Below, in pieces: positions 1 through 48,884 of a stretch of 64,000 bases of DNA. The notes below the pieces were generated by a model. It saw nothing but the letters and a program-made list of their open reading frames with translations. It made no database searches and was not told where the DNA came from. Position 1 is the first letter of the stretch, and every line of letters starts with the position of its first letter. The DNA is taken from the NCBI RefSeq assembly GCF_037975245.1, contig NC_092583.1, positions 4,869,264 through 4,933,263 of the forward strand, read 5' to 3'. This stretch comes from Apostichopus japonicus (Eukaryota > Echinodermata > Holothuroidea > Aspidochirotida > Stichopodidae). The position numbers and the translations under genes were made by a program.

Positions 1-655
1 TATACCTACAATCTTAATGGTGAGGAGTTACAGGTCTTTGTTGAAAGAGACCTCGGTATCTACAATGATTCATCTCTGCAAACTTCTAAACATTGTCTCA
101 AAGCTGCTAAAAGAGGTAATAGGGTTTAAGGAATGAATAAGAGGAACTTTAGTTTTCGGAATGAGGACATACTTGTTAGGCTTTATATGCAGTTGGTTAG
201 GCCTCATCTGGAGTATGCTGTGCAGGCTTGGAACCCATATTTTGCTAAAAGGGTAAGGAAGTACTTGAAAAGGTCCAGAGGAGGGCTACTAGGATGATTA
301 GTTCCTTAAAATGTGTTCCTTATAATAGGCGGTTACAACTGTTGAATCTCACCACACTGGAGCTTAGGAGGTTACATGGGGACTTGATTCAGGTTTTCAA
401 GATTGTGTATGGTTTTGACAATTTATCCTTCACCGACTTTTTCATGTTTGCTAATAGTAGTTGTACCAGAGGTCATTGTCTTAAACTCCAAAAGTCACAA
501 AGTAGGATTAATATTTGGCATTACTTTTTTTCTAGTAGGGTTGTAAATGAGTGGAACGGCCGTTTGTCTGAGAAAGTTGTACTTGCAAGTAGTGTGAATG
601 GGTTAAAGAATGCTTTGGACAATCCTATAGGGTCCTTGATGGGGACTTGAGTGTC
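1..655 (+). mobile_element. LINE fragment, CR1/Jockey-like, C-terminal part of reverse transcriptase ORF
   Basis: Reading the plus strand across two frames gives the end of a non-LTR retrotransposon polymerase. The landmarks are ERDLGIYNDSSLQTSKHC, then LVRLYMQLVRPHLEYAVQAW, then LELRRLHGDLIQVFKIVYG, and finally VVNEWNGRLSEKVV just before the stop near 648. These are the conserved post-catalytic motifs of CR1/Jockey-type LINEs. An in-frame stop near 128 and a frame change near 290 show it is inactive. The catalytic part would lie left of the window. Family is assigned by motif only. Confidence 0.85.
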
Positions 656-21113: not shown

Positions 21114-24100
21114 ATGCCACCTAAGAAGAAGGCAGAGGAGTCAAAACCTATTCTGTTTGGTCGTCTTGGAACATCACTTAGAATAGGCATTGTGGGTCTT
21201 CCAAATGTTGGGTTAGTTCAAACAACTTTTCGTTATTACATTAAACTGAAACCTCATTTTACAATTGTGTTTTTGTTTGGCTTCTAAGGTTCTATCTTTC
21301 CATATTAGTAAATATTAGTTATTTTAAAAAACTGAATGATCAATTGTTATGAGTCTAGGTATCTGTAATAATTGTTACCTTTAAAACATTGTATGCTGCT
21401 TCCATGTTTATATCAATAGCCCACTTAATGTTGTACCTCATGCATGTAGAGGAAAAAACAAAGATTTTTAGAAAAAATTAAATCTATCCAACTAGTTTAA
21501 TTTTGCTCTTTACTCAAATTTATTAATGTAAAAGAAAAAACATATGGGACATTCATCAGGTTAATTTTCACACCATACATTACCTCAGTGTGGTCCTCTT
21601 TCATCTTACTATATACTTTATTTTATGTGCCTTAACTCTGCAGCAAATCAACTTTCTTCAATGTCTTAACCAAGAGTCAAGCATCTGCAGAAAACTTCCC
21701 GTTCTGTACCATCGGTATGTCTATATTTACCTTTATGTGTAGTTGTAGCAGACCAGTGGAGTACGTGAAGACAGGTTTAATGCTCTCTGCCTTCAAGTTG
21801 GTCTTCAGTGCGACAGCTAGGTGGATGGCCACCTAGACTTGTAGTAAAATTATTTCTTGAAGCAAATGATAAAAAGACTGTCTAGCAAATTATAAAGTTA
21901 TGAACACTTTTTAAGAAGTAGATTTAGAAAATATTTGACAAAAACATTCATGTTAATGTTGTTATAATGCAACCATCTTTGTGAACTGATACAGGACAAT
22001 AGTCAGGTGCTTTCTCTTCATGTATGTACACCATCTGGTTTCAGGTTAACCTAAAGTACCCTTAATATATGATCATCAGATTAGTCTATGGTTATATACG
22101 CATATTATCAATAGAACGACTCACATGCAGTGAAGTAGTAAGTACTTGGCACAATTTTAAGAAGTTTCTTCTCAGGTGAGGAGGGTAACAGCATCAAGAA
22201 CTCATTACAAAACAGTAATGAATCAGTTAGCACTTTGAAACCTGCTGTGAAATTGTTCAAGTGTTATCATGACCTCAGTAGGCTCAGTGCCTTCTTCAGT
22301 TCTGTTGGCAAAGTTAAATTTACCAGAGCAACTCTTTTATTGTCATATACCACTGTAAAAATGAGTCACGAGCAAGCATTTGAAATACATTTTGAATAGA
22401 ACTGAATTGACAGCAAGGGGGGAGGGGGTTGTCTTGTTTTGTGTGTATTATATGACCTTTTCAAAGCAATTCCTTACTTTGTGACCTTTGTACAATTTTG
22501 GTGATACATATGATGCAATATTTATATTTTCCTAAATATTCTGATAATTTCTCTTTACCTTTTCTTTCTATGCTTCACTGTGCTTCCTACCAACTTCCAG
22601 ACCCTAATGAAAATAAGTATTTTTTTATTTGCATTGTTTTTATTTTGTAGTGTTTAAATTAAAGAGATGAATAATAGATTTAAGAAGAAAAGTACAAAAT
22701 TGATAGAAGATTTTGTTTATGTTTTGTAGGTACGCCGTGTACTAGCTTAAGAATGGTTTATTGAAATTTAGTCTGTAACTTTGTATTTACAATACCTTTA
22801 GATACATACGTTTTTATTTGCAAAGATCCAGCTGTTTACCCCCAATTAACAGTTAATAAGTAATATTAATGAAATGTAGTTTAATTAGTTGACAAGAAAT
22901 TATTACATCATACTTCTGCAAATTGACCATTGAAAACAGGAATAGTACCATACCCACTTCTTCCAAGACCACATGAATTTTTATTTTTTTTATGATTGAA
23001 TATGCTTAAACATGATATTGGAGGGAAAGTACTACTTAGTAAAGAGTAAAAAAACTTTCAGCTTGGAATAGTTTCTGTAGTGTTGTGTGACAGGTCATCA
23101 TGTTCATCCACAATTGCAGTTTGATTGATGAAAGATGTTTTTGTTTTTTTGTAGATACGTCGAGTACCAGTACCGGATGAGAGGTTTGACTTCCTGTGTG
23201 ATTATTTCAAACCAGCAAGGTGAGAAGCACCTAACTTTGAGTTCTCCTAAAACCAGTGCTAGTTTGTTAGGCTTTTAATAGTATGCAGGGATGTGCCCAG
23301 GATTTCCTGAGTGCCGGGTATACTGATCGCCGTCCTGGGGGAGGGTTTAAGAGGGAGGGGAGTGCCCCCCTCCCCTTTGAGAAATTTTTCAATTTTTGAA
23401 GGTGCTCAGATGCCAAATGCTGGCACTTGTGTAGCTTTTTAAGCACATACACAAGTACTAGTTTTGCTAACAATTGACATTTTGTTTTTAGTGAAATATA
23501 TTACGTACCTGCCTGGTAAAAGTTATTAGTTGGTTTCAAAGAGATTTTAAGGGACCGATTCAGAGCAGTAAGTAATGTTTCTTGCATGCGTAATTGATGC
23601 ATTATTAGTCTGTATGGTTTTGGCATATGCTAGGCCCAATTTATGTTGAATGTATTGTCAGGAATGTCGGGATTTAAGATGAAAATAGTGCTGGGCGTTT
23701 GTTGTTTTGTGCGACAAGCCTTGAGGCATGCTGGTCATTTAAGGTAATGAAATTGTGTGTGCAAACTACTTCTTTTGAAAGTATATATATATTTCTAAGA
23801 CATTTTTGTTTTATATACACAGCAAAGTTCCAGCATTCCTTAATGTCACAGACATAGCTGGCTTGGTACAAGGTGCCCATGAAGGGGCAGGACTGGGCAA
23901 TGCCTTCTTATCTCACATCAGAGCCTGTGATGCCCTTTTCCACCTGATGAGTAAGTACATCTTTCCAGACGTTTTCCAATTTGTTGATAATGGCACATCA
24001 TTGCTTTTCAGATTTCCAGGGTATATTTTATTGTTAGGCACTTTAAGGATGGGCATCGTTTAAATTCATTCATTCACATCTGCAGTTTGTTGTTTCTTTT

Positions 24101-27100: not shown

Positions 27101-30100
27101 GATATCTTGATCAAGTGAGTTCCAGATGTATATACACCAGTACTTCGTACTTGGGTTTGACTGTGGATAGTTTTGGAATATGGTTGACTTAAAGAGTGTT
27201 CATTCATACTTAGTAAAGATTCCTAAATCCTATTGGTCCATTCAGGTCAGCTGACCGTGGTTAATCCTGTGAGTAACGCACGGTAAAATTACGGGGCATC
27301 ACTTTAATAAATCTTTGGTTATATGTAACCAAAAATGTTTTGTTTCATGATTTTTCCCCCACACAAATGGTAGTGTATGAATGAACGGGGTTAATCAACG
27401 GTCTAGCGTGTGTTACTCACATTATTAATGCACTCCGGGTGTGATGCAAGCGATGCACTCGGCTCTGCTACGCTCTGCCCTTGTGCATCGCTTGCATTAT
27501 CCCCGATCGTGCATTAATCCTGTGAGTAACGCACACTAGACCGTTGATTAACCCCTCATTTATAACAATTGTTAAAGGTATGATATTCTGAGTTACTACA
27601 ACAGAAATTATTGAAAGCTACTGGGAGCGTACCTTTGTGAAATTTATATAAAAAAATCCCAAGTTGATAATGATTTAGGTCAAAGAGAGTAAGAATTTTA
27701 AGCTCTTTAAAGTGAGGTGGAGTATTACACCTAAAATGTGTATTACAAATATTACGAATGACACGTTTTTGTAGTCTAACCTTTCAAGTGTTGTTCTGTG
27801 AGTACATCCCCACAAAAGGAGACAATAGTTCAAATGAGGGAGCACAAGTGTGTTATACAATGTTAAAAGTGCACTCCGGGGTAAAATGGTTTTTAGTCTA
27901 TTTATGATGCCATTATATTTTGAAATTTTAATACAGATATTATGAACGTGTTCTTTCCAATTTAAATTTTCATCAATTGTTATTCCTAGAAAATTTGTAT
28001 GAGGTGATGCTTTTATCTGTTGACCATCTAGTACAACCATTATATTACTTGTGTCATGAATTTTATTGTCAAATATCATAAGTTTTGTTTTCAGTATATT
28101 GAGAGATAATTTGTTTCAATTCAGCCAGTTAGATATATGATGAAATTCACATTCGACATCCATTAGAGTATCATTAAGATTTTTATTTTGATAAAACACA
28201 GTAGTATCGCCCGCAAATAAGATAAAGTTAGATTTTCTGGACGAATAGTGAATGTCATTCATGTATAGAATAAACAACAAAGGTCCTAAAATGGATCCTT
28301 GTGGCACACCAATGTTACAAGTCAAGATTTGGGAGGAACTACTGCCAAACTGGACATAATTGATGATGCTCTCTTCCAGCTTCCTCAGATGATGGCAAAA
28401 TGATTACTAAGTCCATCTCAGACTTCTGACCTTATCATGGGCCATTTTTTTTGCCATTCTATTTTCAATCAACTTATTTCAAGTCCTGTAGAAGCTTTAA
28501 GCCACACTTTTGAGGATTGTGTCCACTCAGCCTTTACCTAAGCCTTAACGTTATGCTAGCTATATTTCTTTGCAAGGTTTAGAATCGGTCAGTTTTACAA
28601 ATAGTGTATTGTGTTCTCTATTACAGGATTTTCTTCAAAGGATTCATAAGTACTTAACAGAGGAAAAGAAGCCACTCAGACATCAAGAGTACAATGCCGT
28701 TGAAGTAAGTTTAACTTTGGACTAGATAAGCACACTTTTCTTCTGTCCCCCCTCCTTCTCCCCTTGTCCCCCCCCCATCATACCTCTTCTCATAGCTCTC
28801 TTCCACCCTTTTTTCTCCACACCTTTCTGCCTTTGTCCTTCTCCAGTTAATTCCCTACCCACTTCCCTTAATCCTCTCTTTGCCCTCCACTGTTTATCTC
28901 CTACCTCTCCTCTTCCCCTGTTGGTTTCTTTCTTTCTTCTCTCCATCCCTTGTCTACTAATCCCCTTACATCTATCTCTTTGTGTTCACCATGCTCATTT
29001 ACCTGTCTGTATTCTGTGCATGTCTTTGTCCCTTCTGTTACTGTTACTTGTCATTTAGCTTTGAAGAAGATCCTGCTAGGATCGAAACGTCAGGCCAACT
29101 TACTTTTACACATTCTCTTACACAGGCTGGATTAGCAGTTGGCTAACAGTTTTATTTTATTTAGATAAACACATGTATGTACATTCATGTCTGTGTATAG
29201 TCCTGTAGAAGCAGGCCAGGTTTACCAAGCTACAGTATGCCTGTGTACAATTTGACAGATATAACAGAATATTCACTGGATATTCTTAAATATTTGATAA
29301 GATTTGCCAAAATATAAAATGCAGAAGATTGTGTATTCCAATAAACCATCGCTTGTACATGGTATCAGTTTTTTTTTTACAAAGGAATGACCTTATGGTG
29401 ACCTTAGGGAACATGAGTGTTTGGTGATCGGTTGGGGCTAAGTCTGTATCCTGTTATAATTATGGGAAAACCAGTAACCAAGAAGTCAGACCCTGAAGTA
29501 TTAAGGATATTTTACCAGCAGACAAACAAAACAACATCTGTAGAACTGAACTTTTTTTTACTTTATCATTAAGTGAGAAGATTCTGAGATCAGATGAGGT
29601 TTTAATGTGTAACTTGATTAATCCTAAGTGGCACCTAGGCTACTCACCATAACACATTCCATGAGATTAGCTTATGTGCATGGGATTACTGCCAGTCGTT
29701 AGTTTAATAACTGCTCTATATAGCATCTAGAGAAAATTATACCCTTCATTTATTATAGCCTTAGCTTGAACTCATGACAGGGATTTTCTTGGTAATAAAC
29801 AATAGGAAACTTATATTGAAGAGAAATATATTCCACACTGCTAGTTGAAATCTCCCATCTCAATACCTTGCCCCTGACTCGAAATATGGTTCATTGAATG
29901 TAGTTATCATTTCTGACTGGCTAAACCTTTCAACTATGGCAGGAAGTTGGATCACAGTGGGGGGTCTGTGATTTCATCTGGTCAAATGCTCTTTAAAAGC
30001 ACTACTAAGGCTATTATTATCTTCTTGTTGATTTATTCTTGAAACCTGATACATTTGGAAGGTTGCATATTTGTCTGTACTAAGAATTTTATCAAATTTT

Positions 30101-33100: not shown

Positions 33101-35586
33101 AAGTATTATTAATTCTATATGTTGAGTGAAAACTGTGGAGAGCTCGGGAATCCCTACATTACTATGGAATACCATTTTTGGAACAAGATGCCAAAAATTA
33201 AAGCCTGCAGTCACAGCGCATCCAGTTTAAGATCCTACTTCTCACCTACAAAGCGATCAACGGGCTTGCCCCTCAATATTTCACTGACCTTCTTACTCCT
33301 TTGCGTTGGTCAACTTCAGTTATGCTTCGCTCTTCCAATCATGCACATTTGCAATTAACTTCTGGTACACGTACCAGCACTCATTATGGCGATTATGCCT
33401 TTTTTTGTTGCTGCGCCTTGTCTTTGGAACAAACTCCCATTTCAAGTTCGTGACTCTCCCTCCCATTGTACTTTCAAGAGACAACTTAAAACATTGCTGT
33501 TTGATTCCTAGTTTCTTTTTTTACCCTTGGTTTCCTTTGTCTCTTTCCTACTTTGTAAAGCGCTTTGAAATGCTGTATTAAGCGCTATAGAAGTGTAATT
33601 TATTATGATTACAGAGAATTGAGAAAGATTACAGGTGATCGTGGGATTAAATGGGAGTCGAGAGGGATACAAAGGAATGACTTTGGCATTAAAACCAGCA
33701 GCGATTTTAGGTGGTAGTAAAATGGATAAAGGCTTTGAGATAAAAGATATCCAATGTCTTTTGTAACTAGAAGCATTGGCTTATGTAGTGTGTTCTGGGC
33801 TAACGTAGTTTGTTCTGGGCTAACGTAGTCTGTTCTGGGCTAACGTAGTTTGTTCTGGGCTAACGTAGTTTGTTCTGGGCTAACGTAGTTTGTTCTGGGC
33901 TAACGTAGTTTGTTCTGGCCTAGTAAAACATCAAAATCATTCTTTCATTGCACCATTTTCTTCAGAGAGATTCACATGATGTTACAGAAACAATGTTGTA
34001 AAATGGCTGTCAGTCATGCATATAGCCGGGCTGGGGGGGGGGGGGGAGGGTGTCAAAAGAACCATCTGTCCACAGCTTCAGGTAGAACCTGTTGGATATA
34101 ACGTGCTTCTTAAGCACCGGCCAAGAAAAAGAATATGGCTTGCGAAAATGGATTCACAATTATAACCCATTGAACAGGGAAAGTGGTATCACTACTTGCA
34201 CAAACAACAAACACAAAGAAACGCGAGCTGCAGTATATTATGGTGCATCTGTTAATCCTTAGCCTTATCAAAGAGCTGCAGTATATAATGTACATCTGTT
34301 AATTCTTAGCCTTTGTGTGAATTTTTGTTGAACAGAAAGGCACCAAGGCACCCCAAGCAGCTGGAAGGATCCACACAGACTTTGAGAAGGGTTTCATCAT
34401 GGCAGAGGTCATGAAATTTGATGACTTCAAAGAATTAGGAAGTGAGGGCGCTGTTAAGGTAGGTGGGAGGGGAAAGGGCTTAACATGCTAATTGACTTTT
34501 AGAGAATGAAAAGGATTGTCTTTCATTCTGTTCATTTTGTAGAGTTACCTACGAGTGGTGCAATTTGCCAGTCTTCTTACTCGTCAAGCTGTTGTACATC
34601 AGTGTGTCATACATCTGAATTTAAGCCAAAGGAAATTACATTGCTTTTGCCCCCCCCCCCCCAATTTATCCGAACCTCATTGTGGTCATTAAAAGTCCTG
34701 AAAGGTGTAAGTGAGGTTTTTTAACCATTTCTAACTGTCAAATCCGTTTTTATAGTACTAAACAACCAAGAAACATAACAGAGGAGAAATGCTTTAGGTA
34801 CATGTTGGGGTTTAGTTTTGAAATTTCTACACTAGATTCTTGATAGTTTGTGGGTTTGTCACAGAGAGTGGGTTTAGCAATTGCTCCTGCAGCATGGAAT
34901 GGTAGATGGATAGCTAATAGACACAAGTGAGGGGATGGTAGATGGGGAGGGTAGGTGGAGGGGGGGATGACTAGAAGGATACATGTGTATTGTTCATCAC
35001 ATTGGATACTGTTATGCTTTGTTAGATTTGTTTCGTTTAGGCTGAAAATCTAAGGTTGAAAGAGCATCTATCTTTCACTTGCAACCAGTGTTAAGTGAAA
35101 ATCTTTGCCAAAATCCTAGCAGCAATAACAACAAACTTGTCCCAAAACTCCTTAAATTGTTGTATATTTTGCCAATTATGAGATTCGTCCACGACTCCCT
35201 TCTTGAGATATCGTGTTTACAAGGTTTTCACATTTTGACCCCTGGTGACCCAAAATGAATTTGACCTCCTCTAAAAGCAATAGGTTTCTTCTACTCAATG
35301 CGGTACACCGACTCACCAATGTGAGATTGGTCCAAGCTTCCATGCTTGAGATATTGTGTTTACAAGCGAGGCGTCACACACACACACACTCATCCACCAG
35401 CATGACTGCATAGGTTACGATCATCATCGGTAACTTCTTTGATCAAAAGTTAAACATATTTTGTTTTTGTTTATTTAGTCTGCAGGTAAATATCGACAGC
35501 AAGGACGTAACTACACAGTAGAGGATGGAGACATCATCCTGTTCAAGTTCAATGCAGGCGCTGGTCTACAGGACAAAAAGAAATAA
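21114..35586 (+). CDS. OLA1: Obg-like ATPase 1 (YchF family P-loop ATPase), complete
   Basis: Twelve coding exons: 21114-21211, 21644-21714, 22601-22612, 23159-23219, 23823-23950, 26052-26227, 28627-28704, 30446-30543, 31812-31955, 33002-33098, 34336-34458, 35479-35586. They sum to 1194 nt, that is 397 aa; the human protein is 396 aa. The start [12 protein letters not shown] matches the family start. Walker A GLPNVGKST is at 28-36, DIAG at 91-94, and NLSE at 228-231. NLSE replaces the GTPase NKxD and gives ATP preference. A coiled-coil insertion lies between, and the C-terminal TGS domain includes [20 protein letters not shown] and [16 protein letters not shown]. It is a cytosolic ATPase that associates with ribosomes and translation. 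Exon 7 ([16 protein letters not shown]) is the most diverged part. Intron 3 is AT-AC; the others are GT-AG, though the acceptor of intron 8 has a weak pyrimidine tract. The exon holding the ATG probably begins at 21107 after an AG, implying an untranslated first exon upstream. Confidence 0.97.
22613..23158 (+). other. OLA1: AT-AC intron of OLA1 (intron 3)
   Basis: Joining 22612 to 23159 gives GAA-AGT-CGA-GTA and the protein [14 protein letters not shown], matching the OLA1 family exactly. The intron then starts ATAAGTATTT and ends TTTTGTAGATAC. The nearest GT and AG (GT at 22617, AG at 23153-23154) would add eight bases and break the frame of a gene otherwise perfectly in phase. The donor ATAAGT looks like a U2-type GTAAGT with the first base changed, not the minor-class ATATCCTT, and a long T tract precedes the acceptor. 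So it is most likely an AT-AC intron removed by the major spliceosome. Confidence 0.85.
22699..22745 (+). repeat. Decayed copy of the 3' end of OLA1 intron 3 and start of exon 4
   Basis: By hand alignment without gaps, 36 of 47 bases match 23124-23170, including the TTTGTAG acceptor-like motif and the exon start (TACGCCGTGTACTAG against TACGTCGAGTACCAG). The copy would hit a stop at once, so it is not an alternative exon. Confidence 0.6.
23285..23440. mobile_element. hAT-like relic related to the 9.0/16.2-kb MITEs
   Basis: GATCGCCGTCCTGGGGGAGG, TGCCCCCCTCCCCTTT and GGTGCTCAGATGCCAAAT mirror the order of blocks inside the 16240-16607 element. It starts with a CAGGGATGTGCCCAGG end, but no second end or target duplication could be found. 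It lies in OLA1 intron 4. Confidence 0.5.
24220..24700. repeat. GGTCA-rich ~130-bp tandem repeat, three to four units
   Basis: Successive units carry CTTAGTATGTGGATCC, AGCACAAGAACCCTATTGG, GGTCAAAGGTCA-type runs, AAAGTCTGAAAAC and TTGTAAACATGATAACTC. The period is about 130-140 bp. It lies in OLA1 intron 5. Relatives lie at 2.7, 35.2 and 48.4 kb. Confidence 0.75.
26990..28370 (-). mobile_element. 5'-truncated LINE (CR1/L2/Jockey-like reverse transcriptase), split by a MITE
   Basis: The minus strand reads [20 protein letters not shown], then [12 protein letters not shown], where the usual FADD catalytic pair is damaged to FAGD. Next come [17 protein letters not shown] and [16 protein letters not shown]. 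Beyond the inserted MITE it reads [20 protein letters not shown] and [15 protein letters not shown]. This is palm to C terminus of a non-LTR reverse transcriptase, with frame breaks, in OLA1 intron 6 against the direction of the gene. It is inactive. Confidence 0.88.
27230..27560. mobile_element. Fold-back (palindromic) MITE nested in the LINE
   Basis: The arms 27387-27420 (GGGGTTAATCAACGGTCTAG and on) and 27522-27555 are reverse complements at 32 of 34 positions. Inner segments (GATGCAAGCGATGCAC with GTGCATCGCTTGCAT; ATTAATGCAC with GTGCATTAAT) extend the stem. A third partial arm, TTAATCCTGTGAGTAACGCA, lies at about 27265. LINE protein sequence resumes on both sides, so this is a later insertion. 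Exact outer borders are uncertain. Confidence 0.75.
29040..29165 (+). mobile_element. Short repeat R2 with CTGAAGA...GAAACGTC-like core (copy in OLA1 intron 7)
   Basis: It contains TTGAAGAAGATCCTGCTAGG and ATCGAAACGTCAGGCC, then TTTTACACATTCTCTTACAC, and ends GTTTTATTTTATTTAG. The same order is found, inverted, at 39370-39515. The central six-base inverted repeat GATCCT-GCT-AGGATC can form a stem. It resembles the short non-coding repeats of Penelope-like elements or retrozymes that carry hammerhead motifs. That link is inference. Confidence 0.6.
32167..32709. mobile_element. hAT-like MITE in OLA1 intron 9
   Basis: The ends CAGGGGCGGACTGGG and CCAGTCCGCCACTG are inverted repeats. The flanks are ACAGGACC (32159-32166) and ACAAGACC (32710-32717), an 8-bp target duplication with one difference. 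It is 543 bp and has no transposase. It contains a GATCGCCGTCCTGGGGGAGG block also found in the 23.3-kb relic. Confidence 0.9.
33190..33610 (+). mobile_element. L2-like LINE 3' end
   Basis: The plus strand reads [20 protein letters not shown], then [20 protein letters not shown] and [12 protein letters not shown], the end of an L2/CR1-type ORF. The 3' tail TTTGTAAAGCGCTTTGAAAT, then AAGCGCTATAGAAGTGTAAT and TTATTATGA, is characteristic. Frame breaks occur and the element is 5'-truncated. It lies in OLA1 intron 10, in sense orientation. A similar tail lies on the minus strand at about 56125-56185. Confidence 0.85.
33791..33922. repeat. 20-bp satellite, six units and a partial
   Basis: Units TGTTCTGGGCTAACGTAGTT start at 33791, 33811, 33831, 33851, 33871 and 33891, with a partial one at 33911. 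The second unit differs by one base from the others. The near-perfect identity means it is young. It lies in OLA1 intron 10. Confidence 0.97.
35160..35400. repeat. GGTGACC-type ~130-bp repeat, about two units
   Basis: Two units with CTTGAGATATCGTGTTTACA / CTTGAGATATTGTGTTTACA and TTTTGACCCCTGGTGACCC lie about 140 bp apart. A short CA microsatellite follows. It lies in the last OLA1 intron. Confidence 0.65.
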
Positions 35587-41137: not shown

Positions 41138-44100
41138 ATGTCGAAAACAGATGAAAGTAAATCCAGCGGAACGTCTCAGGTAAGATTTTGTTTCTTTTAT
41201 GTGAAATTTGTGAAGAAATATGGCAAGTATTTGTGTGGCCTGATTTGCGAAGCTCGGCCCCTTTCAACACCCCCAACAGTAACAACCCGCCCATTACCCG
41301 AAGGCCTAACTGGATAATCGTCTTTATTGTTTACATTGACAGGGACAAGAAAATAGTGGCTCGCAACCTTCACCATTAGCCCTCCTCGCAGCTACTTGCA
41401 GTAAAATAGGATCACCGTCGAAACCAGCAAAAACGCAAGGCAATCAATCCAATCAAGCACAAGCTGTCCAAGTATTGAATCAAGCCCAAAGCCAGGCTAT
41501 CCTAACAGCTACTGGACAGCCAGGTATAACACTACAACAACAACCTATACAATTACCATCGCTTCCCATACAGCTGGGGTCTTTGGGTGGCACTGTACAG
41601 GTACAACTAGACGCTAACACCCTGGCAAGTATACAACAACAGCTGCAACAGCAGCAGTTGGCAACTCCTAAAACTCAGCAGCAACAACAACAACAAGGGG
41701 GCCAAAACACATTAGTAACTAACTTGAATCAAACTCCTCAAGTTCTCCAACCTGCACAAATCTTTCAATCGAATGGAATCCAATATAATGTTGTCCCACA
41801 GTTAGTAGTGGACGCTGATGGTAATATTATACCACAGAATGCTGGAAATCAAGCAACTTCCACTGCTCAACAACAGGTTGTTCAACAAACCGGGCAATTT
41901 ACCCAAGCCCAAACTAGTACTGGTAACCAGGTCGTGAATATCCCTGGCTTTGGGAATGTTCTAATACCAACTGGTGGTCAAGTTTTGCAAGGAAACCAAA
42001 TTGTTCAAAATGTTGGTACTCCAACAAGGTTGTCAATTGGCAATCCACCTATTGCTCTTCAAGTCGCAAACAACTATTCAGGAGTGGTGCCAGTTAGTTC
42101 AGCTCAAGTTGTCAGTGGAGGACAACAGTTCACTCTTGGAAATGTATCAAGTCAGAACACTGCCGTGGGGACAACCCAAAAAGGACAACAGAATCTTCAA
42201 CCAAAGACCATGGTAGATTCAAAGTCATCAGATGTGACGTCAGTGGTCCAGACTCCGCATAAAACATCCAACGTGGTGGGTAGTTTAGGTACCACCGCCA
42301 ACCCAACAGTATCTTCGCAACAAGTTCAAGTGTTGCCTCAGGTGAGAGTCATTTGTAAGCAATGTCTTGCGACAGTACAAAAGTACAGCAACATTATTAC
42401 TCAATGGAATCAAGATGTATCTTAACTGATGCAATCATTTCTGTGTTTGTCATGCTATTAAAACTTAACACAAGTCCATCAAATGCATGTAGTTTATGCA
42501 CCAGTTTATGTGATTGGATAGGTCTGGTAGTGTTTAAAACTGAAAGTAGCCTATGTTGTTCACATTTCTAAACTGCAATTTATACTTTTATGAGTGCCAT
42601 CGGCAAAGATTACTCTAGTGCAACAAAGTGATCAGGAAAAAAACTTATATGTACAGCTGTTTGTTGTTTAAAGTTGCACGTGAACTGTAGGACTAGGTCA
42701 TGTACAAAGAGCAAGGGAAACTTGCATGCTACAAGTTTAACTTCCTCCATTTAATACTCCATCACTTGAAAACTGTCATTCATCTTGAGTGCTTCTGGTT
42801 AAAATTCACCCCATGTCTTCAACAGAATAAATAAAGCAACATATATACATCCTAATTAAATAGAACTAGATCTTTTTGGACATAATGTCAATGCATTGAT
42901 CTTTATGTACTCTGGTGTAATTGGGAGCCTACATAATTATACAAGTTCTATCATTGCAATGCCAGACTTTTGGATGTACTTTTGTGCTCTTAAAATCTAA
43001 GCAAATTTTATAAGAAAATTAAGGTAACTGTTTAGTAATTATTCATCAACAATGTTACAGAATATTCTACAATGCAGTTTTTGCGATATAAAGTAGTAAA
43101 TATTGAGTGCTCTATGTCAATGCTCAGCATAACAGTGATGTTCTGTTTGGTCCTAAGACTAGTTCCTTTTACTTCTGATCAAAGAGGGTGGCATATACTT
43201 GTGAGTTTTTTTTTGTTCGAAGGACCTGCCATGGCACCATGACAAATTTAATTGGATGCATCTTTTGTGCCTATTGTGCATTGTATCTATCTTGAAAATT
43301 TCATGCTACTTAAATAGAAGAAAAGTGTGTCAGACATGTCAGAGCGCTCCTCCCAGTAAAACAAAATCTATTGTGGACTTTAAAAAGAATGGAGTTAGAT
43401 TTTTGAGATTTTGGTTGTCGTCACATTCAGGGATTGATGTCATGTAATCCAATGAGAGACATATATATTTAAGTTACAGTTTATATTCTGTTGAGGAGAT
43501 GATAAATAGCTAGTCTGCTAACCATTGTACATTACTCAACAGTGTTTATTGCAACTAGCCCATGCTCAAACAAATTGAGTCAAGGTTAATATAAATTTTT
43601 CCTGTATGCCAGATTTGAGACTACGTTCTCAGGTCAACCCACACTGTAGAACAATGTTATAATATAGGTAAAGTAACAATTATTATTATGATTATTATTA
43701 TCATTTTTCTCTGTAGATTGTAAACAATCAGCAGTTTGTCCAGGTACAATCCCAGAACACACAAAAGCATATACAGAATGTGTTAAACCAGTTACATCAG
43801 CAGGTACAGAGTACAGCTAACAACCTACAGACATCACAGAGCAATCAGACACAGCAAGTTACAACAGCACAGCAACAGAATGTGGTTAGCAGTCAGGCTA
43901 CTCCTGTCACATCCACCGCCACTTCAAAGGTCCAAACGTCCACCGCAGGAACTCAACTTCAAGGACAGACCATACAGTTCGGTCAACAAAATTTACAGAT
44001 TCAGCAGCTGCCAAATGGACAGATAACGTTGACTCCACAGCCAACCCAACAGCAGGGCATCGTCCTGCAGGCCATTCAGCAGCCGCAGACAATAACGTTA

Positions 44101-47100
44101 CAGACGCTCGGAAACATTCAGGGTGTACCCCAGACAATTACCATACCGATTCAAAGTCAGACAGTTGGACAGCAGTTGGCGGGGGCTAACATTTTTATAC
44201 AGACACCGCAAGGCCTGCAAGCAGTGCAGCCGGGTCAAGCTCTCTACCAGAATCCTGTCTTCTTAGGAGGTAATAATGGAGGAGTGCAAACATTACAGAT
44301 ACAAGGGCTTAATGTAGCCGGTCAACAGCAGCAGCAGACGGCTACTTCCAATGCCATCACGGCCGTACCGTATGCTACGACTATCGGTGGACAACAGGTA
44401 CAGATCAGTCAGATGCAAGCAGCAACACTTGGCAACAAAGGTCAAATTGGTGAGTCACCATTTGTGTTACGCAATTTGAGTCATTTTTTAGGACTTTTCA
44501 AAAAATGTCTAGTACTAAGAAGTGTAGTCGTGGAGAGGTTTAAGTAAGGATGTGTCGAAGGATGTAATTATCCATTCAAAAGTTAGATCTTGGAAGTAGT
44601 ATGAAGGAAATGGGTTAACTTTTTGTAGCACTACCACCCTGCATGGAATGTTTTTTTTTGTATTGGTGTACTTCTACCAAAATCATCCTTTTGAGTGTTG
44701 GGGGGGGGGGGGTTGTGAGGGGTAGGGGCGGGTAATGTTGCAAATGCTCAAAATATATCTTTGTAGCCGCCACAAACTTTTCAAATTGAACCGTTAAGTT
44801 GATGCCAATTATAGAGTATTCAAATGGTTTCAACTGACAGGACACCTTTGCTGAAAACAATAAGAAGATTCCGCTTGTATCAGAACATTGGCCACTCTAA
44901 AATGCATAATTTACCTTCACAGGCACTTTGTGCAGTTGGTTCACAGGCATTTTCTCTCTTCCTTTCTTCTTTGCAAGTAGTTACACAAAACAACAGCAAT
45001 GGGATCACCTTGCCAACCAAATCATGGACTAATCAACAGGCTGTTACCAATACTACACAGTCATCTAATCTGCTCACACCCCAGCAGGTGGTTACTGGGT
45101 CCGCCCAATTTATATCTCTGCCTGGTGATGGAGAGATCCCAGATGGGAGCTCTCAAAGGGTCAAGAAGGTGGTCAAGAGAATGGCATGTACCTGTCCGAA
45201 TTGTTCAGATTCTGAAAAGTGAGTGAGTTGTGTTTATGAAGGCATGTTTGGACGTACAGTGTTTTACTGAAGATCAATGTTAGTGAGGGTACTCATGGTA
45301 TGATGTTTTAAGGCTATCGGTCCTAATAATGCATCAATACTTTTATTGAAAGGTGCTTTTTAGCTGCATGACACAGAAATTACATTCACCTTATTCCCAT
45401 GTTTCAGAGAAAGCCAATGTCAATTTAGGGAACAGCATACCCCTCCTCCCCACCCTGACCACCCCTCCCTGCCCTCCTCCAGGAAATTTCAGAAATAGAA
45501 TACTACTATGTCATGTTCTGGTTTACAGGGTTGTTTACAAAGTTTCCATACCGAATTAACCCAACTGCTATTACACAGATAAATGTACACTACCTCTCAA
45601 AATAGTGCAAAACAGGTGCGTTAAGACCTCTGCTTAATATTAACAGTATGCAAGAAAGGTGCTTAGTGAATTACAGGTGCACTCTTAAAAATTTCAGGTA
45701 GAGATAAGTCAGTAAATGGGGATAGTTATGGTTATAGCACATGTAATGTTTTTCACATGATGCAGTTAGTGAGATTGTTGATTTGATTAATATTGGCAAG
45801 TATTACAACTGTGTGTTGTTGCTTAAAGCAGCATTTTGCATCCTTTTCTATGATTTTTCTCAACCTCACTGATTCCACTTTGCCATAACGACATACATAA
45901 CTAGCTAATCTATTTATATTTTACTTCAAATGGTGGCATAAAAGTCGAAAAATTTGCAACTTTCAACTTTGTTGTTCTCCAAGATATTTTCCGTTGGGAA
46001 CCCAATAAACCTCGCCCATAATATGAATATTTAAACACTACGAACGTCATTGACAAATACGTAATATAACACCACGCTTGATTTGTGTACAATCTATATG
46101 GCAGTTGTATCAGGGAGTTGCATAACAACTCCCTGGTTCATGTGGTTGTACCAACGCAAAGTCTTGAATCTATTTTTAGCAATGGCTCATAACTAAACCT
46201 GCATCTGATTGGTTGCATTCAAACTAGTGGGTTTGGCGGAATTGTATACGATTAATTTTAACTGTGGAATTTGTCGAGGACACTCTTCTCATTATCGACA
46301 TAAATCGTTAATTACTCGCTAATTAATGATCTTGGCAGGGTGAAACTTGGATGGTATCTAAGTTTGCTGTTTTATGATTGATACATGTAAAAAAATCGAT
46401 GCACATGATAAAAAGGTGGAAAAAAGTGACCCAACGCAAAATGCTGCTTTAAGTGTGGTATTGATGCTCGTACTGATGTCTAAGATATGTATATGTATCC
46501 ATTTTAACATAGGATGGGATTCCTGTTTTATTTGACATTGCCTTGCCTTGCATTTGATAGTTTGTGTTGTTTTGACCTTAATTGTAGACATTTTCACTAT
46601 TTACAATTTTCAAAGGTTTTGGGTGAATGTCACAAGTCAAATGTCTGCATCCAGCAGTAGGACTTCCACATACCATTTATGAACATCTACAGTGATATAT
46701 ATGAGGTTGTGTACAGTGCAGTAGGTAAAGCTGAAATATTTATTATCTATATACACCTAGTGGTAATTGTTTGGTCTCTACATTGCAGGAATCACAGTGG
46801 ATCTGGTAAAAAGAAGCAGCATATCTGTCACATAGCTGGTTGCAAGAAGGTTTATGGGAAAACTTCACATCTCAGGGCCCACTTGAGGTGGCACACTGGT
46901 GAAAGGCCTTTCGTTTGTGACTGGATCTTCTGTGGCAAGAGATTCACACGGTCAGATGAACTTCAGAGACACAAAAGAACACACACAGGTAAACTATGGC
47001 GGAGTTAAATGTGGCGGTTAAAATGAAGTTTTTGTTTTATGGATATACTTAGTTGAACACACACAGGTAAAGTCTAATAGAGTAAAATGTGGCGGTTAAA

Positions 47101-48884
47101 ATGAAGTTTGTGTTTTATGGATATACTTAGTTGAACACACACAGGTAAAGTCTAATAGAGTAAAATGTGGCGGTTAAAATGAAGTTTGTGTTTTATGGAT
47201 ATACTTAGTTGAACACACACAGGTAAAGTCTAATAGAGATAAATGTGGCGGTTAAAATGAAGTTTGTGTTTTATGGATATTTAGTTGTTTTAATTTTTAA
47301 TGTTTACTTGAACGTTGACATCAGTTGGATTTTGCCTACAAGCACTATCACCAAAAACACTGATAAGAACAGATTACAAGCTATGGTAGTTAGTACTGCT
47401 ATATATACAAAGCATAGCGTATTCCATAGAATGTTCAATGTGTACCTGCTTCGAATTTTACAAGTTTAGCCAATGCCCCCCTCCCCCCCACCCCCATATG
47501 AATATATAAATACATGCCAGTGGTTAAGGAGCCTTTTGGGGTAACATCAAGTTCTCACTGGTATTTTCCGGAATTTACAACCCACAATAGTTTACTGCAT
47601 GTAGGCTTTTGAGAGCAGCTCAATAAAACAACATTTGCTGATAATAAGCAGTAACACAGGGTTTATGATATCAGGGCGTACAGAAATCAAGCCAATTCTT
47701 TGACTGATGATTGTTTACTGAATTTATATCGTATATTTAAATTTGTGGTCTCTACTGGCAGAAAATGATCTGACTTGTATACACAACAGGAAGCAAATTC
47801 ATACTTTTCAGGGGATAAGTGGTTTCTATTTTGTGGAGAAAATATGTAAATTAAGTATCGGCACAAGAAATTAAATTGACATCACTAATGATCTCTCATT
47901 ATCACTGGTGAATTAACACAAGCTGCCAAACAAGTTAACTATGAGGAGAGTCACTTAGTGTTATGTGCAATAGCTTACAAGTATTAAGATCGTTCATGGG
48001 GTCATGACCTTGGGTTTGCCGAGTCGAATTCATTGTTAAGAGATATTGCAGGAGAAATGGACAGAAACATTTAAGAGCCTGTGTTCATGAAGACATATAC
48101 TCATTAAATTGTTAGTGTGGAAATTTATGCTTGTATATTTCATGAAATCGACGTACACTTCTGAAATCGCATGGCAGTTCTTGAAACAGAATGAAACATC
48201 AAGTTTTGCTGATGCTGTCCATGAAATTTTAAAAATCCAATTTGATCACTGTCCATGTATGTACTTAAACATATGTATGTATGTATGTATGTATGAATGT
48301 GACACCTTGACTTGTAAAGTCAAAATTGCATAATGGATTAATTTCACACCTGGTACATGGATTCATGTTAGTGCTTACAAGAACACTATTGGTTTGCAGA
48401 GAGGTCAAATGTCATGTGGGACCACCAGAGGTGAAAATGTGAACTATAAGATGATAACTCCCCTAAGTAAAGTTTTCATGAGATTCATACTTATTGTAGG
48501 TCCACCTTGGTGTGTAGAGCATTTTTCAATTTGTTGTTGTTTTTGTTGCTATTCTTTGCAGGAGAGAAGAAATTTGAGTGCACTGAGTGTGGTAAACGTT
48601 TCATGAGAAGTGATCACCTGACGAAACACGTCAGAACTCACATAAATAAACAAAGGAGCAAAGATTCGCCAGATGTTAAACCTGGAGATATGGAGATGGG
48701 TGGCATGGAAGCATCCCCTTCAATGGTAGAAGGAGAGGGTCTTCAAAGGACAATAGTCACACCAGCAATGGATTCATCTATGATTACCATGAACAGCAAC
48801 ATTCAAGCCACTCAAGGTATGGTTGGGAAACCTATGGAAGGTACTAACATGGTTGAAGATGGGGAGAATATCACACTTAACTGA
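41138..48884 (+). CDS. Sp1-4: Sp family zinc-finger transcription factor (Sp1/Sp3/Sp4 type), complete
   Basis: Six coding exons, 41138-41179, 41343-42341, 43717-44449, 44978-45218, 46789-46988, 48562-48884, sum to 2538 nt, 845 aa. The Sp box [14 protein letters not shown] lies near residue 20. Two long glutamine-, serine- and threonine-rich activation domains follow in exons 2 and 3. The Buttonhead box [13 protein letters not shown] ends exon 4. Three C2H2 fingers follow: [40 protein letters not shown] and [18 protein letters not shown]. The helix contacts KTSHLRA, RSDELQR and RSDHLTK are those of Sp1 and predict binding to GGGCGG/CACCC boxes in the nucleus. The tail after the fingers is acidic and poorly conserved. 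Q-rich architecture assigns it to the Sp1-4 group and not Sp5-9. The ATG at 41475 is internal to exon 2, not the start. Exon 5 ends between fingers 2 and 3. Confidence 0.97.
46978..47295 (+). repeat. 78-bp tandem repeat that multiplies the exon-5 splice donor of Sp
   Basis: The end of exon 5 with its donor, ACACACACAG|GTAAA, is repeated downstream with GT at 46989, 47067, 47145 and 47223, exactly 78 bp apart. The units share TGTGGCGGTTAAAATGAAGT and TTATGGATATACTTAGTTGA. Only the first donor keeps the reading frame, because the next bases give a stop within a few codons. Confidence 0.95.
48300..48520. repeat. GGTCA-rich ~130-bp repeat, partial, before the last Sp exon
   Basis: It contains CACCTGGTACATGGATTCAT, TACAAGAACACTATTGG, GAGGTCAAATGTCATG and GATGATAACTCCCCTAAGT, as in the 24.2-kb array. 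A GTAT microsatellite (about 48268-48295) precedes it. Confidence 0.6.

Follow-up and report, generated by a model that had tools for sequence, protein, structure and literature searches.

A putative U2-type AT-AC intron with a nested GT-AG pair in the OLA1 gene of the sea cucumber Apostichopus japonicus

The OLA1 gene of the sea cucumber Apostichopus japonicus contains 11 coding introns, ten of which have GT-AG ends and join their exons in phase, and this raises the question of how the remaining one, intron 3, is bounded and which spliceosome removes it. We analysed a window of 64,000 nucleotides (contig NC_092583.1, positions 4,869,264 to 4,933,263 of the forward strand), to which all coordinates given here and in Table 1 refer. 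In agreement with the species, a ferritin exon translated from this genome is identical at 89 of 89 residues to chain 7vhr_A, an entry cited in work on the ferritin of A. japonicus. Joining of the 12 coding exons resulted in an intact reading frame of 1,194 nt, stop codon included, which encodes 397 amino acids. In a phmmer search this protein matched 2ohf_A (E 2.3e-188), which is GTP-binding protein 9, the human OLA1. In a search of the genome (671,581,487 bases in 35 contigs) the protein gave 12 matches, of which 11 fell on exons of the same gene and the twelfth was weak (42% identity, E 0.0015, contig C3). OLA1 is thus apparently single-copy in this genome, and a retrocopy, which would represent a fossil cDNA, was not found among the 12 matches. 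Exon 3 is only 12 nt long, a point absent from the preliminary description of this DNA. At 22601-22612, a 12-nt exon of a housekeeping gene is combined with a non-canonical donor.

For the boundaries of intron 3, GT-AG, GC-AG, AT-AC and AT-AG pairs were scanned. The frame stayed open through exon 4 with 33 pairs, all of which were individually tested in a repeat scan, and AT22613/AC23158 alone gave the conserved NESRV motif. The in-frame canonical solutions among them, four GT-AG and two GC-AG pairs (6 of 33), did not restore it. When the scan was made blind to the terminal dinucleotides, 6 of 2,200 boundary pairs restored the motif apart from one variable residue. This residue was S once, with the AT-AC pair and identical to the human residue, R twice and N three times; the termini of the other five pairs were AA-AT, AA-TA, TA-CG, AA-GT and AG-TC. 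Across the AT-AC junction a conserved stretch of 16 residues aligns to human OLA1 without a gap, and an insertion at the junction was seen in none of the five protein alignments shown. We regard this conservation as strong evidence for the junction and infer the AT-AC termini from it. The preliminary description had placed an AT-AC intron at these very coordinates, with GT-AG introns in phase elsewhere in the gene and a conserved protein from 1,194 nt of coding sequence, all of which holds. It had also stated that splicing from GT22617 to AG23154 brings in 8 extra nt and disrupts the frame; translation of this product indeed ends after 94 residues, within exon 5.

Table 1. Features of the OLA1 locus and of the region around intron 3
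Feature	Position	Strand	Basis
OLA1 coding region, 12 exons, 397 aa	21114..35586	+	In-frame exon joining; phmmer match to 2ohf_A
Exon 3, 12-nt microexon; completes a D codon, encodes PNE and supplies the first base of an S codon	22601..22612	+	Sequence ACCCTAATGAAA; CTTCCAG acceptor upstream
Predicted AT-AC intron 3, 546 nt, ATAAGTAT...TTTTTTTGTAGATAC	22613..23158	+	Boundary-pair scans, protein conservation
Putative U2-type AT donor ATAAGTAT, able to pair with U1 at +2 to +8	22613..22620	+	Comparison with the U1 of the genome
Nested GT (GTATTT), 4 nt inside the AT donor	22617..22618	+	Boundary scan, U1 comparison
Putative decayed second 3' splice-site module: branch-like TTGAT, T tract, GTAG, GTAC, exon 4 start	22699..22745	+	36/47 ungapped identity to 23124-23170
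Two yUnAy branch-like TTGAT words (23121-23125, 23125-23129)	23121..23129	+	Sequence inspection
T-rich tract, 78% pyrimidine	23135..23152	+	Composition; polypyrimidine tract present
AG (TTTTTTTGTAG) upstream of the terminal AC, not used in the product that keeps the frame	23153..23154	+	Boundary scans
Terminal AC of intron 3, 4 nt beyond the AG	23157..23158	+	Boundary scans
Exon 4, first and last codons split with the adjoining exons	23159..23219	+	In-frame exon joining

Canonical routes around the AT-AC junction were also tried. Microexons of 6-45 nt from the interval 21760-23130, flanked by AG and by GT or GC, were combined with AG23154 or AG23164. Of these 692 combinations 150 were open, and none gave DPNESRV; an open frame alone is, with so many open combinations, weak evidence. 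Skipping of exon 3 was open with 2 of 33 AG acceptors (exon start at 23165 or 23171), at the loss of DPNESR or more. Recursive splicing at 22729 (AG/GTACGC; a slash marks the splice junction here and below) returned, on reading the sequence, to frameshifted or stopped products.

The main mRNA might nevertheless be made from canonical sites and encode an altered protein, either by skipping exon 3 to AG23164 or by joining an 8-nt microexon (22826-22833) to AG23154. Both routes are open to the normal C-terminus, and the microexon even leaves the protein length unchanged. However, this comes at the cost of conserved residues common to human OLA1 (DPNESR or NES), which are lost or replaced, and the microexon donor GCT/GTTTACCC matches U1 at only 2 of 11 positions; we consider such an mRNA very unlikely. 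The presence of a GT at 22617 and an AG at 23154, both out of frame, could also point to an error of sequence or assembly by which a base is missing from exon 3, so that GT-AG splicing would otherwise be in frame. Single-base insertions on the exon 3 side (22601-22616) that open the GT-AG frame resulted in seven distinct proteins, none of them with NESRV and all three residues longer. The alignments mentioned above have no insertion at this place. Moreover, the matching published assembly, presumably the one analysed here, is based on PacBio HiFi data at ~64x (PMC10344927). An error of this kind is therefore highly improbable. Finally, a GT donor might arise if the first base of the intron underwent A-to-I editing, and for human the editing of AT-AG sites to GT-AG is on record (PMC4176328). 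Yet an edited donor retains the boundary at 22612, which still leads to a frameshift when joined to AG23154 (DPNENTSSTSTG followed by a stop), and the AC end is required even then; the chance that editing accounts for the junction is close to negligible.

If the ends are AT and AC, the intron could still be a divergent U12-type intron that is removed by the minor spliceosome. AT-AC termini are a frequent feature of U12 introns, genes for U12 (115.9 bits) and U11 (88.7 bits) are present in the genome with scores above the Rfam cut-offs, and the nested GTATTTTTT agrees with GTATCCTTT at 7 of 9 positions. On the other hand, the AT donor itself agrees with the U12 donor ATATCCTTT at only 5 of 9 positions and carries a G at +5. 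The best word resembling a U12 branch site, situated 30 nt from the intron end, scores 6 of 9, so that a TTCCTTRAC-like site close to the 3' end is lacking, as had been described before, and the intron contains a T-rich tract. A control intron in the PHB2 gene of the same genome looks different. By direct reading, it is a U12-like AT-AC intron with the donor ATATCCTTTT and the near-consensus branch word TTGCCTTGAC, with 13 nt between this word and the intron end (junction GAGGCAGCTTACATG/ATATCCTTTT...TTTGCCTTGACATCATTTTCTTAC/CTCGGTGAA). The U12-type donor pattern ATATCCTT occurs in this control and not in OLA1 intron 3. PHB2 is tabulated with a U12 AT-AC intron in fly and human (PMC2831892). 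OLA1 intron 3 hence shares its termini with U12-type AT-AC introns such as that of PHB2 and differs from the latter in donor, branch site and T tract, which makes removal by the minor spliceosome very improbable.

The donor of OLA1 intron 3 fits U1 instead. The first 11 bases of U1 in this genome are ATACTTACCTG in the three of 42 U1 genes that were inspected, and AAA/ATAAGTAT can pair with them at 8 of 11 positions, seven of which (+2 to +8) are contiguous. This equals or exceeds the pairing of nine of the ten canonical OLA1 introns (6, 7, 7, 7, 6, 8, 7, 8 and 7; the tenth pairs at 11), and the nested donor TAA/GTATTTTT pairs at 6 of 11 positions. Judged by the U1-fitting donor, the missing U12 signals and the T-rich tract, intron 3 of A. 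japonicus OLA1 is very probably a U2-type intron of the 'AT-AC II' kind, spliced by the major spliceosome, which agrees with the class suggested in the preliminary description. All 42 U1 snRNA matches returned were located within ~68 kb of a single contig (G000:C20:29019462-29087219), many of them ~855 bases apart.

A second pair of splice sites lies within the predicted intron. The borders of a GT-AG pair are each set in by exactly 4 nt from those of the AT-AC pair, a layout that had not been noted before, and a further AG is found at 23133-23134. The strong-looking AG 4 nt upstream of the AC speaks against use of the AT-AC ends. Parker and Siliciano reportedly showed that introns of the major spliceosome need matching first and last bases. 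PMC2831892, too, describes a restricted interaction between these bases for splicing of the U2 type. A mechanism by which the AC might be chosen would begin with the T tract, which would recruit U2AF, probably docking at AG 23154, and branching might take place at one of the TTGAT words. Once the branch had formed, an A as the first intron base would be incompatible with ligation at AG 23154, and the second step would take the AC four bases downstream by the first-last nucleotide rule. The pair GT22617/AG23154 would be a possible, unproductive competitor (frameshift, stop in exon 5). Because the stop lies in exon 5 of 12, this product is expected to undergo nonsense-mediated decay. The two pairs might even form a native nested switch, in which the pre-mRNA is spliced either productively from AT to AC or from the inner GT to the inner AG with frameshift and predicted decay. 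The choice of AC or AG in the second step would then set the output of OLA1, with the inner AG serving as the U2AF dock for the outer AC. We put this forward tentatively and regard it as possible but rather doubtful.

The intron also contains a segment at 22699-22745 that resembles its own 3' end. The match takes in a TTGAT word and the T tract, continues through GTAG and RTAC and includes 12 nt at the start of exon 4. It was spotted by eye before testing; its score was reached in 3 of 1000 dinucleotide shuffles. The signal depends on the splice-site part (4 of 1000 and 3 of 1000). The exon-only part was not significant, since 773 of 1000 shuffles reached its score. A 20-mer from GTAG onward, chosen after the match had been seen, is identical at 16 of 20 positions, which was reached by none of 5000 first-order Markov sequences. 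Comparable 20-mers at the ten other OLA1 exon starts had at most 13 of 20 matches within their upstream introns; the exon 4 row of this comparison, placed at the AC boundary, gave 12. If the AC or AG of the copy was used, the frame would end within 4 or 5 codons. We read the segment as a probable relic of a local duplication, and it may possibly act as a regulatory decoy. A donor-like repeat at 22802-22822 was not significant (213 of 1000 shuffles), and a genome search for copies of intron 3, which skips simple repeats, returned the intron itself as its single match.

Some further features were seen in the window. Within an OLA1 intron, a 20-bp unit (GTAGTTTGTTCTGGGCTAAC) occurs approximately seven times at 33785-33922. 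Fragments which by eye resemble reverse transcriptases of the LINE type are located at 249-647 (+), 27678-28115 (-) and 33202-33579 (+). Downstream of OLA1 and on the same strand, glutamine-rich and C2H2 zinc-finger open stretches at 41340-48881 have, again by eye, the look of an Sp1/3/4-type gene; OLA1 and SP3 are neighbours in human as well. A 78-bp tandem repeat of about four copies occupies 46977-47287. Its unit includes the last part of an Sp-family zinc-finger exon together with a presumed splice donor (ACACACAG/GTAAA), which is hence present four times in a row.

In the literature searched, there was no record of an AT-AC or minor intron in OLA1 or of AT-AC splicing in a sea cucumber. 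U2-type AT-AC introns are very rare. For 13 species listed in Table 2 of PMC7367187, their share of all U2-type introns was 0.01-0.07% in eight and 0 in the other five, and according to the same source the U2-type spliceosome recognises AT-AC introns poorly. OLA1 intron 3 would thus be a further case of a known intron class with an unusual nested layout. It is located in an echinoderm gene for a conserved, apparently single-copy housekeeping ATPase/GTPase, and the GT-AG offset is fixed at 4 nt on both sides. This provides a natural setting in which to study the influence of the first intron base on the choice between AG and AC, and it bears on the need for an upstream AG in recognition and on the origin and persistence of AT-AC introns. 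Gene finders restricted to GT-AG introns would be expected to break or mis-model OLA1.

The original papers on U2-dependent AT-AC introns are those of Wu and Krainer from 1997 and 1999. Among known cases, the AT-AC II introns of sodium-channel genes, such as intron 21 of human SCN4A, have the same termini and the same G at +5 as OLA1 intron 3. SCN4A intron 21 requires the major-type spliceosome, and Lin et al. (2010) proposed, arguing from sodium-channel genes, that such U2-type introns derive from trapped U12 AT-AC introns (PMC2831892). This route differs from the one suggested by the preliminary description, in which the OLA1 donor would be a GTAAGT whose first G had been changed to A. The OLA1 intron differs in gene and phylum, in the GT-AG pair nested 4 nt inside both ends and in its position beside a 12-nt exon, and its class is assigned from sequence features. 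In one sodium-channel region of the A. japonicus genome, in which the exact position of SCN4A intron 21 was not fixed, one GC-AG and one GT-AG intron were present and no AT-AC intron. The twintron of fly CG3294, the ZRSR2 orthologue, likewise has two intron pairs in one place (PMC2831892); it combines a U2-type with a U12-type pair, whereas both pairs of OLA1 look U2-type and use of the inner one is putative.

The closest layout is that of the Arabidopsis GFP reporter studied by Kanno, Matzke and colleagues, in which a GT-AG intron is nested within a U2-type AT-AC intron, the AC lies just outside the AG and the AT-AC product alone is translatable (PMC5473141, PMC5873924, PMC6283158). This reporter is spliced both ways, yet in the parent line the AT-AC product accounted for only ~17.5% of the transcripts (PMC5473141), and its AT-AC splicing is lowered in a prp18a second-step mutant (PMC5873924). 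The reporter is a transgene with a 3-nt spacing at the 3' end; in OLA1, which is conserved and in its native setting, the spacing is 4 nt at either end. The position of an AG next to the AC in both suggests that the AG may help recognition of the AC. If OLA1 pre-mRNA is indeed switched between its two nested pairs, intron 3 would represent the natural equivalent, in an animal, of the Arabidopsis reporter and would put the first-last rule to the test in a native gene.
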